DNA of 64,000 bases from an uncultured Rhodospirillaceae bacterium (GTDB lineage Bacteria > Pseudomonadota > Alphaproteobacteria > Reyranellales > Reyranellaceae). The stretch's first letter is position 1. Each line of letters begins with the position of its first letter. Positions 1 to 9,808 of the stretch are shown one piece after another. The notes below the pieces were generated by a model. It ran no database searches. It worked only from the letters and a program-made list of their open reading frames with translations, and had not been told where the DNA came from. The translations under genes were made by a program, and so were the position numbers. Location of the stretch: positions 1 to 64,000 of the forward strand of contig CAMFGZ010000003.1 of the NCBI GenBank assembly GCA_945952105.1. The letters run 5' to 3'.

Positions 1-70
1 AACTACATCCAAAACGCCGGATATGCTCACGTCAAAACGTGAAACGCTCTAGGAATTCTTCGCCGTGGCG

Positions 71-5292: not shown

Positions 5293-6045
5293 CTAGCCGT
5301 CCCAGACGTTCTGAGGCATCGGAAGACGGGCGAAGTCGGCCTCGCGGAGAGGCCGATCGTGCGTCACGCCCTCGCGCTCCAAGAGCATCATCCACTGCCG
5401 GACATGCTGGCCGGAATGCCAGGTCGTGCGTTCGAGAAGTTCGTGCAGGCTCTGGTCGCCATAGTAGGTTGGCAGCATGCGGGCCGCGCCGGTGTCGCCA
5501 TGCGCCCACCAGTCGCGGAAGCGTTCCTGAACCGCCACGCCATAGGCCGCGACAGACGCCATGTCGGCATCCGGCGCGGGCTCCTCGCGAAAGAAGGCCT
5601 GGATCAGCGTCGTGCCCTGCTCGGCATCGAGGAAGGCCGTGACCACGCGGAAGAGATGGAAGGAGAGGGCACGATAGCTGCGCGGGCGCCCTGGGACATG
5701 GACGTGAAGCTTGTCATCCGGCATCAGCGGCAGCAGGGCTATCGCCGCCGTCATGAACTTGTCGAGGCGTGCATAGAGTTCGGCGGGCGAGAGTTCAGGC
5801 CCAGACTTTTCCCGCAGTCCGAGGAAAGCCACGATCTCCCGTGTGCTCTGGCCGAAGATGAAGTCCTTACCCCGCGACAGGACTGGCACGGACCGCGCGC
5901 CCAGCGCCTGCAACTCGGCCAGGCCGGCCGGATCTTCAAGGACATTCACCGAAACGAAGTCGATCCCACGGACCGATAGAAACTCTTTGAGTCTCAGGCA
6001 GCTCGTTCAACCGGGCTGCCAGAAAACCTTCAGTGGCTCTGTCAT
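5293..6045 (-). CDS. glutaredoxin-DinB fusion with in-frame UGA at the first catalytic Cys (candidate selenoprotein)
   Basis: Read from the ATG at 6045, which has AGGAG six bases upstream, the frame gives MTEPLKVFWQPG, then TGA (6009-6007), then TSCLRLKEFLS and on without interruption to 5293. The total is 250 residues if UGA is decoded. Residues 1-75 form a glutaredoxin-like domain: beta strand LKVFW, active site [UGA]-T-S-C at 13-16, cis-proline VP at 53-54, and a final helix STREIVAFLGL. Residues about 85-250 are a DinB-type four-helix domain with candidate metal ligands His130, His210 and His214 (WHSGQH). TGA stands exactly where glutaredoxins have the N-terminal Cys, which points to selenocysteine; a nonsense mutation or sequencing error cannot be excluded. 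Without readthrough, a GTG at 5949 could start only the DinB part plus half a glutaredoxin. It is the last gene of a Bug/VOC/monooxygenase cluster. Function unknown; thiol or peroxide chemistry is likely. Confidence 0.7.
5960..5995 (-). promoter_or_regulatory. tandem hairpins just downstream of the UGA (possible SECIS region)
   Basis: Two stem-loops follow the UGA inside the coding sequence. The first (5995-5979) pairs GAGACUC with GAGUUUC around an AAA loop, starting 11 bases after the UGA. The second (5976-5960) pairs UCGGUCC with GGAUCGA around a GUG loop; its loop is 37 bases after the UGA. Bacterial SECIS elements sit in this distance range and usually carry a G in the first loop positions, which only the second hairpin has. 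The pairing was worked out by hand and no folding energy was computed. Confidence 0.35.
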
Positions 6046-6064
6046 GACGTTCTCCTAGACAGGC

Positions 6065-7048
6065 TCAATTGGCGGCCGGCAGGCCCAGCATGTCAAGCAA
6101 TGTCCGCCAGCGAGCGAAATCGGCCGAAAGTCGCCTCGCGCATTCGTCGGCCCCACTCATACCCACGACGACGCCGTACTGGGTGAGTTGTTCCCTCGTT
6201 TCCGACGCTTCGACGGCATTGTTCAACGTGCGATTCCACGCGGCGACGAGTTGCGACGGCAAGCCGGCGGGTGCGAAGAAGGCATACCAGTCGACGAGCT
6301 TGAGCTTGGGGAAACCCAGTTCGACCACCGTGGGCACATCCGGCAGCACGGGGCTACGCGCCGTCCCCGACGTGGTCATGATCCTGAGCTTGCCGCCCCG
6401 ATGCTGGTGCACGAACGACGCGAGGCCTCCGCAGCCTGCCGGAATACGGCCCTGGCCGAGATCCGACGAGAGCGGGCCGGTCCCGCGGAAGGGCACGGGA
6501 TCGAGCGAAAGATCGTATTGCTGCGCGAGGAGCTGCGCGAAGTATTGCGAGAAGGTGTCGGGCGCGGCCGTGCCGAAGCGGCGCCGCTCGGGCGGACCAT
6601 CCTTCACCCACTGCATGTATTCGGCCACGGTCCGCACGCCGATCGCGGGCGAGACAACGAGCGCCGTCTCGAAGGTTCCGATGATGCCGAGAGGCGCGAG
6701 ATCGCGAAGCGGATCGAACGGGAAGGTCGAGGGCGATGTCAGCCGGCCGATCAGCGTGGTGCTTGGCAGCAGCCCGATCGTGGCGCCATCGGGCGCGGCC
6801 TTCTTCAGCGCATCGCCCATCGCCGCCCCGGCCGCGCCGGGGCGGTTTTCGACGGTGACGGGCCGCCCATGGCGTTGCTGGATGCTGGGCGCGATGGCCC
6901 GCGCCACGACATCGGAGCCGCCGCCCGGCGAAAAGCCGACCCAGATACGCAGGGCGCGATCGGGCAGGCCGGTTTGGGCAGCGGCCTGCAACGGCAGCAG
7001 CGCCGGGCCGGCGGAGGCCAGCAGAATGCGGCGTGAAAGCGGAAGCAT
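6065..7048 (-). CDS. Bug/TTT-family periplasmic substrate-binding protein
   Basis: A 327-residue exported solute receptor. The signal peptide (MLPLSRRILLASAGPALLPLQ...) ends near AAAQT, followed by the Bug signature LRIWVGFSPGGGSDVVARA. It is full length for the family and closely patterned on the two other Bug proteins in the window, though the sequences are clearly diverged. It is followed after 19 bases by the glutaredoxin-DinB fusion and preceded by a VOC protein gene, so it belongs to a minus-strand cluster that also holds an LLM monooxygenase. No cognate membrane subunits are encoded nearby. Ligand unknown; many family members bind small carboxylates or aromatic acids. Confidence 0.92.
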   Translation of the reverse strand: MLPLSRRILLASAGPALLPLQAAAQTGLPDRALRIWVGFSPGGGSDVVARAIAPSIQQRHGRPVTVENRPGAAGAAMGDALKKAAPDGATIGLLPSTTLIGRLTSPSTFPFDPLRDLAPLGIIGTFETALVVSPAIGVRTVAEYMQWVKDGPPERRRFGTAAPDTFSQYFAQLLAQQYDLSLDPVPFRGTGPLSSDLGQGRIPAGCGGLASFVHQHRGGKLRIMTTSGTARSPVLPDVPTVVELGFPKLKLVDWYAFFAPAGLPSQLVAAWNRTLNNAVEASETREQLTQYGVVVGMSGADECARRLSADFARWRTLLDMLGLPAAN

Positions 7049-7085: not shown

Positions 7086-7469
7086 CTAGGGGCTGCGGTG
7101 GCAGACCACGCAGATCTTGTTGCCGTCGAGGTCGCGCAGATAACCGCCGTAGTAGTTCGGATGGTAAAGGGCGCGGATGCCGGGGGCACCCTCGTCGGTA
7201 CCGCCCGCCGCGAGTGCCGCTTTGTGGGCGGCATCGACGGCGCCGCGATCGGGCGCCTCCAGCCCGATGGTGATGCCGTTGCCGACGGAGGCGGCCTTCT
7301 TGTCGAGGGGACTGAGCACCCAGAGCTGTGGCCGGCCGCCTGCCGGGCCGTAGCCGACGGCATTCGGATAGTCCATGTGACGCACCAGCCCGAGCGGCAG
7401 GAGGAGCGCGTCATATAAGGCCCTGGCCTTGCCCACATCGTTGCTGCCGATCGTCACGTGGCTGAACAT
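7086..7469 (-). CDS. VOC family (glyoxalase/bleomycin resistance fold) protein
   Basis: A 127-residue single-domain vicinal-oxygen-chelate protein. It starts MFSHVTIGSNDVGKARALYDALL, the usual first beta-alpha unit, and ends with YYGGYLRDLDGNKICVVCH, the classic second metal-ligand strand of the fold (RDxDGN). The ATG at 7469 is chosen because upstream codons give low-complexity Arg/Ser sequence overlapping the preceding Bug gene. VOC proteins include lyases, dioxygenases and resistance proteins; in this cluster with an LLM monooxygenase and Bug receptors a role in breakdown of an organic compound is plausible but unproven. Confidence 0.88.
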   Translation of the reverse strand: MFSHVTIGSNDVGKARALYDALLLPLGLVRHMDYPNAVGYGPAGGRPQLWVLSPLDKKAASVGNGITIGLEAPDRGAVDAAHKAALAAGGTDEGAPGIRALYHPNYYGGYLRDLDGNKICVVCHRSP

Positions 7470-7491: not shown

Positions 7492-8475
7492 TCAATTGAT
7501 CGGCTTGAAACCGAGTGCCTGGATCGTCCCTTGCCATTTCTGGAGATGGGCTTCCAGTCGCTCGCTGCATTGCTCCGGCGTCGACGCCTCGACCTCCAGG
7601 CCGGTCTGTGACAGCTGGGCGGCGAGTTCGCGGGAGTTGAGGGCGCCCGCCAGTTCCCGGTTCCATGCATCGATCAGTGACGGTGCCGTCCCGGCACGTG
7701 CGAAGAAGCCGTACCACTCTTCCATGTGAAGAGCGGGATAGCCCGCCTCCGCCGCCGTCGGCAGATCGGGCGTCAATGCCGAACGGTTGGATCCGGACAC
7801 GGCGAGCAGCCTCAAGCGGCCGCCGCGATGTGCGACGATCAGCGATGTCAGCGCGCCGACGCCCGCCGGCAGTCTTCCCTCGGCGAGATCGTTGATCATC
7901 GCCGTCGTGCCTCGGAAGGGCACGCCCTCGATCGGCACGCCGAACTCGCGACCGAGAAGGCGCGCATAAAAAGCCAGGGAAATGTCGGTCGCCGTCGCCC
8001 CGATACGTCGGCGACCCGGCTCGTCCGACTTCAGCCAGGCGACGTATTCTGCGATCGTCGTCACACCGATGCGCGGCGAGACGGCCAGCGCCTGGATGAA
8101 ATTGCCCGCGGTCGTGACCGGCGCGAGATCGGACCTGGGATCGAATGGGTAGGACGCCAGCAGAAGCTTCGCGACCATCGACGAGGTCGGCATGAAGGCG
8201 ACCATCGTGCCGTCCGCCGCGGCATGCTTGATCGCCTCTCCCGCCGCCGCCCCCGTGCCGCCGGGCCGGTTCTCGACCACCACCCGTCGCCCCGCACGTT
8301 GCTCCAGGGTTGCGGCGATGGCGCGCGCCATCACATCCGAACCGCCACCGGCCGCGAAGCCCACGACGATGCGCAGCGGGCGATCGGGAAGGAGGGTCTG
8401 GGCGCGCGCGACGAACGGCGCCGCGATCGTGGTGGCGAGAAGGGACCTGCGGAGGAGAGAGCGGTTGGCGTTCAC
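7492..8475 (-). CDS. Bug/TTT-family periplasmic substrate-binding protein
   Basis: A 327-residue exported receptor if started at the GTG at 8475 (VNANRSLLRRSLLATTIAA). This start places the signal peptide correctly and begins 5 bases after the upstream LLM gene ends; a longer frame to 8541 would overlap that gene and add an unlikely N terminus. The signal ends near ARAQT and the Bug signature LRIVVGFAAGGGSDVMARA follows. It lies between the LLM monooxygenase and the VOC gene, the most operon-like association for this receptor. Ligand unknown. Confidence 0.9.
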   Translation of the reverse strand: MNANRSLLRRSLLATTIAAPFVARAQTLLPDRPLRIVVGFAAGGGSDVMARAIAATLEQRAGRRVVVENRPGGTGAAAGEAIKHAAADGTMVAFMPTSSMVAKLLLASYPFDPRSDLAPVTTAGNFIQALAVSPRIGVTTIAEYVAWLKSDEPGRRRIGATATDISLAFYARLLGREFGVPIEGVPFRGTTAMINDLAEGRLPAGVGALTSLIVAHRGGRLRLLAVSGSNRSALTPDLPTAAEAGYPALHMEEWYGFFARAGTAPSLIDAWNRELAGALNSRELAAQLSQTGLEVEASTPEQCSERLEAHLQKWQGTIQALGFKPIN

Positions 8476-8479
8476 TCTT

Positions 8480-9808
8480 TCAGGATGACGCAGTCGCCGG
8501 CCGCGGCAAGCCGAAATGATCGCGTAGCGTGGTGCCTTCATAGGTGGTGCGGAAAATTCCGCGCTTCTGGAGGATCGGCACGACCTCGGCCACGAACACG
8601 TCGAGCATCGAAGGCAGCAGCGGCGGCATCAGGTTGAAACCGTCGGCGGCACCGTCGTTGAACCAGTCCTCGATCAGGTCGGCGATCTGCTCGGGCGTAC
8701 CGGCGGTGGTGTAGTGGCCGCGCGCGCCCGCGAGGTAGGCAAGCAGTTGGCGCAGGGTGAACTTCTCGCGCCGGACCAGCCCGACGATCACTTCGGTGCG
8801 GCTGCGGGCGGCCTGGACCGTGCCTGGATCGGGAAAGTCCTCTTCCGTCAGGGGGCGGTCGAGCGGCAGGTGCGAGAAATCGTGCCCGCCGAACCGGCCA
8901 CTCAGGCGCTTGCGCCCGACTTCCGGATCGGTGAGCTCGTTCAGTTCCTGCGCGAGGCGCCGGGCTTCGGTCTCGGTCGAGGCAATAACCGGGCTGAGGC
9001 CGGGCAGGATCAGGACATGCTCCGAGCGACGGCCTTCGGCCGTCGCCAGCGCCTTGAGGTCGGCGTAGAACTCCTGCGCGGTGTTCTTCTCCATCTGCGC
9101 GGTGAACACGGCCTCGGCATGGCGCGCGGCGAAGCGGCGGCCGGTGTCCGATGATCCCGCCTGAACGAACACCGGACGTCCCTGAGGGCCGCGCGGCATG
9201 TTGAGCGGTCCCGCAACGCGATAGAACTTGCCCTCGTGGTTGATCGGTCTGATACGCTCGGCGCGCGCATACTGGCCGCTCGAGCGATCGTCGAGGACGG
9301 CGTCGTCGGCCCAGCTGTCCCACAGCGCCTTCGCGACCTGCACGAATTCCTCGCCGCGCTCGTATCGTTCGTCATGGCTCACGAGGCCCGAGCCGCCGAA
9401 GTTGCGCGCGGCCGGCGCGAGCCACGAGGTTACGATGTTCCAGCCGACCCGGCCGCCGCTGATATGGTCGAGGGAGCCGAACTGGCGTGCGAGGTTGTAA
9501 GGCTCGGAATAGGTGGTCGATGCGGTGGCGATCAGGCCGATGCGGCTCGTCGCGCCCGCCAGCGCACCCAGTGTCGTGATCGGTTCGAGCCAGGTGCTGG
9601 CGGCGTGCGCCACCGTGTCAGCCAGGGCGAGCTGGTCGGCCAGGAAGATCGAATCGAAGAGACCGGCCTCTGCGCGCCGGGCGACATCGCGGAAATATTC
9701 GATGTCGGTCAGAGCCAGCGGCGAGGAACCGGGATGCCGCCACGACGCTTCGTGATGGCCGCGGCTCTGGATGAATAGATTGATGTGGAGTTGGCGGGTG
9801 GACTTCAT
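8480..9808 (-). CDS. LLM-class flavin-dependent monooxygenase (NtaA/SnaA/DszA type)
   Basis: A 442-residue bacterial-luciferase-like monooxygenase using reduced FMN from a separate reductase. It opens MKSTRQLHINLFIQS, then has the insertion-bearing NtaA/SnaA/DszA pattern: HHEASWRHP, IEYFRDVARRAEAGLFDSIFLAD, the SGRVGWNIVTS loop, and RPVFVQAGSSDTGR. Substrates of this subfamily include aminopolycarboxylates, dibenzothiophene sulfone and alkyl compounds; which applies here cannot be read. The ATG at 9808 begins the conserved sequence, and the frame upstream overlaps the ABC transporter gene. It is followed directly by a Bug receptor. A partner flavin reductase is not in the window. Confidence 0.9.
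   Translation of the reverse strand: MKSTRQLHINLFIQSRGHHEASWRHPGSSPLALTDIEYFRDVARRAEAGLFDSIFLADQLALADTVAHAASTWLEPITTLGALAGATSRIGLIATASTTYSEPYNLARQFGSLDHISGGRVGWNIVTSWLAPAARNFGGSGLVSHDERYERGEEFVQVAKALWDSWADDAVLDDRSSGQYARAERIRPINHEGKFYRVAGPLNMPRGPQGRPVFVQAGSSDTGRRFAARHAEAVFTAQMEKNTAQEFYADLKALATAEGRRSEHVLILPGLSPVIASTETEARRLAQELNELTDPEVGRKRLSGRFGGHDFSHLPLDRPLTEEDFPDPGTVQAARSRTEVIVGLVRREKFTLRQLLAYLAGARGHYTTAGTPEQIADLIEDWFNDGAADGFNLMPPLLPSMLDVFVAEVVPILQKRGIFRTTYEGTTLRDHFGLPRPATASS

Follow-up and report, generated by a model that had tools for sequence, protein, structure and literature searches.

An in-frame UGA at the active site of a glutaredoxin-DinB fusion points to a new family of selenoproteins in Reyranellaceae and other Alphaproteobacteria

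A minus-strand gene on contig CAMFGZ010000003.1 of an uncultured member of the Reyranellaceae, in which a glutaredoxin (Grx) is fused to a DinB domain, almost certainly encodes a selenoprotein, as far as this can be judged from sequence. We found the gene in a stretch of 64,000 nucleotides (positions 1 to 64,000 of the contig, hereafter called the window), where its frame reads MTEPLKVFWQPG, then TGA, then TSCLRLKEF, and contains no other in-frame stop over the 237 codons that separate this TGA from a terminal TAG (Table 1). The selenoprotein status is considered near certain since it is supported by independent lines of evidence, namely the split of the homologues into UGA and Cys forms, the presence of a selenocysteine (Sec) machinery, the co-occurrence of the two, and an RNA element downstream of the UGA. 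The best explanation as a whole, which includes the recoding mechanism, is held with high but slightly lower confidence, there being no mass spectrometry or 75Se evidence of Sec. The gene had originally been predicted from the DNA letters and their open reading frames alone, and on re-reading the frame the predicted coordinates and motif were exact, including the AGGAG six bases before the ATG. As was also anticipated, conventional gene calling would start at a GTG at 5949, which would give a product of 218 aa without the active site.

Table 1. Position of the gene, its domains and the RNA features near the UGA (window coordinates; H2 and H1 are hairpins described in the text, and signed positions are relative to the UGA).
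Feature	Coordinates	Strand	Details
Sec-glutaredoxin/DinB fusion gene	5293..6045	(-)	250 aa incl. Sec13; stop TAG at 5293-5295
AGGAG ribosome-binding site	6052..6056	(-)	6 nt 5' of ATG
UGA codon for selenocysteine	6007..6009	(-)	codon 13; UxxC first residue; TGC/TGT in Cys homologues
Glutaredoxin/NrdH-like domain	5821..6033	(-)	residues 5-75; UxxC, resolving Cys16, invariant Pro54
DinB/YfiT-like helical domain	5374..5787	(-)	residues 87-224; invariant His130, His210, His214 (HxxxH)
4-bp helix CAGC/GCUG	5999-6018	(-)	-9..-6 with +7..+10, UGA enclosed
Hairpin H1	5979..5995	(-)	7-bp stem with an AAR loop, adjoining H2 on its 5' side; +14..+30
SECIS-like hairpin H2	5960..5976	(-)	6-7 bp stem, loop C-GU-G-N; conserved pairing

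The domain assignment of the original prediction, a glutaredoxin-DinB fusion whose redox domain is otherwise intact (resolving Cys and cis-Pro), was upheld by structure comparison and, for the glutaredoxin part, by a profile match. The N-terminal part matched Pfam Glutaredoxin (PF00462) with an E-value of 5e-10 (39.8 bits, cut-off 22.9) and has the active-site motif UTSC. The match of the window protein to DinB_2 (PF12867) remained just under the cut-off of 24.8 bits (22.3 bits, 2e-4), which two homologues exceeded with 29.6 and 38.9 bits (1e-6 and 1e-9, respectively). AlphaFold returned a confident two-domain model (pLDDT 92.7, pTM 0.88), for which the best PDB match found by Foldseek was the DinB protein DR0053 (TM 0.79 by target length), followed by YfiT and then by Grx/Trx-like proteins for the N-terminus. 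The UxxC/CxxC context, Pro54, H130, H210 and H214 are invariant in Sec and Cys forms, and the three histidines fit a putative DinB metal triad, metal binding being inferred from the family.

If the UGA indeed stands for the first Cys of the glutaredoxin CxxC, as predicted, relatives should carry either UGA or a Cys codon at this place. In an alignment of homologues, the codon for residue 13 was TGA in 84 distinct genes and TGC or TGT in 40 others, exactly at the predicted position. That all 84 genes have one TGA, at this one residue of an otherwise open frame, and that the Cys homologues have TGC or TGT there, indicates that the in-frame TGA is no product of chance, in line with the argument in the original prediction that a random nonsense mutation was improbable. 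That prediction would have failed if the homologues had all been broken by further stops or frameshifts; they are undamaged and fall into two clean groups, with UGA or with Cys. UGA genes occur in Reyranellaceae and, beyond them, in several family groups of the Alphaproteobacteria (seven in a class-wide sample of 385 genomes), and Cys forms in Burkholderiales (Paraburkholderia, Caballeronia, Variovorax and others), Caulobacteraceae, Magnetovibrio and other Alphaproteobacteria. Within the window's own family, for which we sampled 75 genomes from five genera (named relatives include Reyranella and Vineibacter), the gene is present in 68 genomes, each time with exactly one internal stop, which is always TGA. 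The cultured Reyranella massiliensis and R. aquatilis are among the carriers of the UGA form. In a tree computed with the active-site and SECIS columns left out, as few as three switches between Sec and Cys are needed, and a single, moderately supported clade takes in 47 of the 52 Sec forms sampled.

Some genomes carry both types of gene. Two Reyranella genomes have a Cys-type paralogue alongside the Sec gene, and a UGA copy occurs together with a stop-free copy in one further alphaproteobacterial genome; such genomes hold natural Sec/Cys pairs within one cell. Reyranellaceae-like copies were also present on contigs labelled Asaia bogorensis and Caenispirillum bisanense (75% and 71% identical, respectively), which are probably mislabelled metagenome bins.

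The original prediction also implied that the genome should encode the Sec machinery, without which it would have fallen. We found selA (563 bits), selB (467 bits), selD (301 bits) and a tRNA-Sec (selC; 71.5 bits) with anticodon UCA. The three next-best matches in the tRNA-Sec search are tRNA-Ser genes. The window's contig carries, within a span of about 20 kb, a formate dehydrogenase gene with the Rfam SECIS_3 element, fdhE, selA, selB and tRNA-Sec, in this compact order (positions 84000-103000 of the contig). The selD gene is on a different contig (131912-132820), within a 777-codon open frame that matches the oxidoreductase/SelD fusion model TIGR04369 with 244.8 bits, below its cut-off, and it is possibly a SelD fusion. 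Since selB is nearly universal within the window's family (above cut-off in 72 of the 75 genomes), the discriminating test is the comparison at the level of the class. Of the 385 alphaproteobacterial genomes, 19 have the UGA form and 18 of these have selB; of the 13 whose only form is Cys, 3 have it, as do 34 of the remaining 353. The sole UGA-form genome without selB is 77% complete. Without correction for genome relatedness, the association of selB with the UGA form gave Fisher P values of 7e-16 against all other genomes, 1e-11 when the window's own family was left out, and 4e-5 when UGA and Cys genomes were compared.

Evidence at the mRNA level, on which the original prediction had been silent, comes from a hairpin (H2) with the fold UCGGUCC-GUG-GGAUCGA, the loop of which begins 36 nt after the UGA. 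All six core pairs of H2 are formed in each of 75 distinct regions. In five regions, which belong to two separate lineages, C-G takes the place of the pair U37-A45, and in one region G-C takes that of U33-A49 (double changes in both cases), and the remaining stem changes preserve pairing as G-U or A-U. Codons 11-17 past the UGA have a synonymous-site identity (counted only where the amino acid is the same) of 0.95-1.00 in Sec genes; for the six H2 codons the mean is 0.98, versus 0.53 outside the element. Among the 16 Sec genes that are most distant the mean still reaches 0.92; the value for Cys homologues is 0.59. Since the protein in this stretch also differs from the Cys family (SVRG in the Sec family, mostly T-K-Q-G in the Cys family), it looks as if the amino acids here were dictated by the RNA. 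According to a published model, a bacterial SECIS has an apical loop of 3-9 nt, a stem of 4-16 bp, a distance of 16-37 nt from the UGA, a G within the first two loop positions (N1-G-[G/U]-N-N2), and an MFE <= -7.5 (PMC13188914). The window's H2 satisfies every one of these rules (loop CGUGG or GUG, 6-7 bp, 36 nt, -7.5 kcal/mol), with a spacing close to the permitted maximum and an energy exactly at the limit; the commonest form of the hairpin satisfies the energy rule as well, and some divergent members are weaker, with -4.6 to -7 kcal/mol. Folding energy alone was only marginally better than that of shuffled sequence (P about 0.04-0.05), and the case for H2 as a putative SECIS rests on conservation and covariation instead. 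An Rfam scan of the region, with the SECIS models included, gave no match even at E 10, and a SECIS-motif pattern scan of the genome gave no exact match beyond the fusion gene (this refers to exact matches alone, those with 1-2 mismatches being left aside).

Two further structures lie close to the UGA. The hairpin H1 is conserved in Reyranellaceae, with one double change from A-U to G-C, and its register is not kept in distant Sec forms. As a SECIS candidate, H1 was rejected on account of its poor pairing in those distant forms (for example 3/16 at 15-29) and an AAR loop without GU. A version with an extended lower stem (+7..10 with +34..37) was also rejected, because one pair (C8-A36) fails in 10 of 75 regions and the same changes are explained by H2. 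Of 75 Sec-gene regions, 71-75 can form the CAGC/GCUG helix around the UGA, in which two codons, CAG for Gln and AGC for Ser, are unusually fixed.

Could the TGA be explained without selenocysteine? A pseudogene or sequencing error, with nothing but a nonsense mutation setting the gene apart from the Cys type, would account for a frame with one in-frame TGA and a possible downstream start at GTG 5949, but we regard this explanation as already refuted by the conservation of the UGA across genera. TGA at this place in dozens of independently assembled genomes, with no further damage to the gene, means that the base is not a sequencing error hiding a TGC or TGT, as the original prediction had conceded it might be. 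Moreover, there is protein-level selection on either side of the UGA, and the codons just past it are frozen. Hardly more credible is that the UGA is a real stop which ends a short leader peptide, the DinB protein being initiated separately from the GTG at 5949 where a mechanical open reading frame begins. This start codon is unconserved, its third base being G in only 45% of the Sec genes, while the TSCLRLKEFLS between UGA and GTG is nearly invariant and matches the active site of the Cys homologues; a leader peptide would also leave the co-occurrence with selB unexplained. That some other suppressor tRNA inserts Cys or Trp at the UGA is not directly excluded, the tRNAs of the genome being incompletely catalogued, and would be very surprising given the tight link to selB, the model-conforming SECIS-like hairpin and the tRNA-Sec with its UCA anticodon. 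In addition, UGA serves these bacteria as an ordinary stop, since many homologues themselves terminate in TGA. We therefore retain the reading of the UGA as selenocysteine. By sequence comparison, with no protein data to draw on, it is supported by a UGA that appears to be recoded, an encoded Sec machinery, a conserved SECIS-like element, and an apparent exchange of Sec for Cys in species mostly without selB.

Glutaredoxin-type selenoproteins were known as a class, as the original prediction had said: a Sec-containing glutaredoxin (UxxC, PF00462) is listed as experimentally verified in a recent inventory (PMC13188914). The fusion resembles it in having Sec for the first Cys of the Grx CxxC, with SelB-dependent recoding and a downstream SECIS predicted likewise, but differs in the DinB domain with a putative metal site behind the Grx, in a Grx that is NrdH/YruB-like rather than stand-alone, and in being alphaproteobacterial. 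With the DinB/YfiT thiol S-transferases (BstA/YfiT, Mst; PDB 1rxq, 6iz2) it shares the four-helix fold and the three-His HxxxH arrangement, whereas the reviewed members of that group are not described as glutaredoxin-fused or as selenoproteins. Uxx-star proteins (NF041212, NF041114, NF041211) have a Grx-like fold with U or C at the same active-site place; however, they lack a DinB domain, and the fusion scores only 29.5 bits against NF041212 (cut-off 66). Alike in full-length architecture are the Cys-type Grx-DinB fusions of Paraburkholderia, Caballeronia, Variovorax and Roseomonas (closer ones ~38-48% identical), which have Cys for Sec and no frozen SECIS codons; these proteins, including plasmid-borne ones, are annotated merely as 'DinB family protein' or 'glutaredoxin domain-containing protein'. 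The 2026 inventory of 119 prokaryotic selenoprotein families contains no family naming a DinB protein (PMC13188914), no model of NCBIfam release 20 has a cut-off that the fusion protein passes, and full-text searches of open-licence papers for DinB with selenoprotein/glutaredoxin or selenocysteine returned unrelated papers only. Because of these three results we conclude that, while Sec-glutaredoxins are already known, the Grx-DinB fusion is a new family among the UxxC bacterial selenoproteins; like the original prediction, which could name no such selenoprotein, we found no paper or family model describing one.

With regard to the mechanism, we propose that SelB with Sec-tRNA(UCA) would bind H2 during translation (this contact is inferred), and that the selenocysteine inserted at the UGA would act as the nucleophile of the UxxC active site (catalysis is likewise inferred). 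The chain would then continue into the four-helix DinB/YfiT-type domain with its three-histidine putative metal site, where the Sec-Grx domain may supply or regenerate a thiol/selenol. Among DinB proteins there are S-transferases for bacillithiol, mycothiol and glutathione (PMC4360819). From this, the invariant His triad, and a glyoxalase/VOC-like gene upstream on the same strand (7089-7469), we infer, only tentatively, as the most likely function that of a thiol-dependent (probably glutathione-dependent), metal-assisted transferase/reductase that detoxifies electrophiles or oxidised thiols, with thiol and metal binding presumed from the family and catalysis likewise inferred. In many Reyranella genomes the glyoxalase/VOC-like gene lies directly before the Sec gene, and in others ~1 kb upstream with one gene between. 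Beyond Reyranella, the neighbourhood comparison showed no conserved operon partner, and gene neighbourhood was dropped as a guide to function, synteny being restricted to that genus. In the window, TctC-type (tripartite tricarboxylate) receptor-like open reading frames surround the gene (1202-2197, 6065-7048 and 7492-8541, minus strand; only 6065-7048 was checked against Pfam).

The main functional rival leaves the selenoprotein status untouched and bears on the function alone: the role could be plain reduction of disulfides or GSH-mixed disulfides, or metal handling, with the DinB domain as a docking or regulatory module and not a transferase. We hold this to be quite possible, if short of probable, as the best scores of the Grx domain are to NrdH/YruB-type redoxins and the DinB profile match is weak in the window sequence. 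Against it stands that all three DinB histidines are invariant in Sec and Cys forms alike, which suggests a working metal site. A new selenoenzyme class in which a Sec-Grx domain acts directly with a three-His DinB metal centre on the same chain, the selenolate supplying or recycling the nucleophile of a DinB-type thiol transferase and an unusually distant SECIS being preceded by a second hairpin, remains a speculative reading that we would not yet call likely in either of these aspects.

Altogether, the prokaryotic selenoproteome gains a widespread family, present in 68 of 75 genomes of one bacterial family and scattered in other Alphaproteobacteria, whose genes are cut short by gene callers. 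Selenium has apparently not been connected with the DinB thiol-transferase fold before, and the clean split into Sec and Cys forms offers a natural experiment on why one lineage retains Sec where others use Cys.
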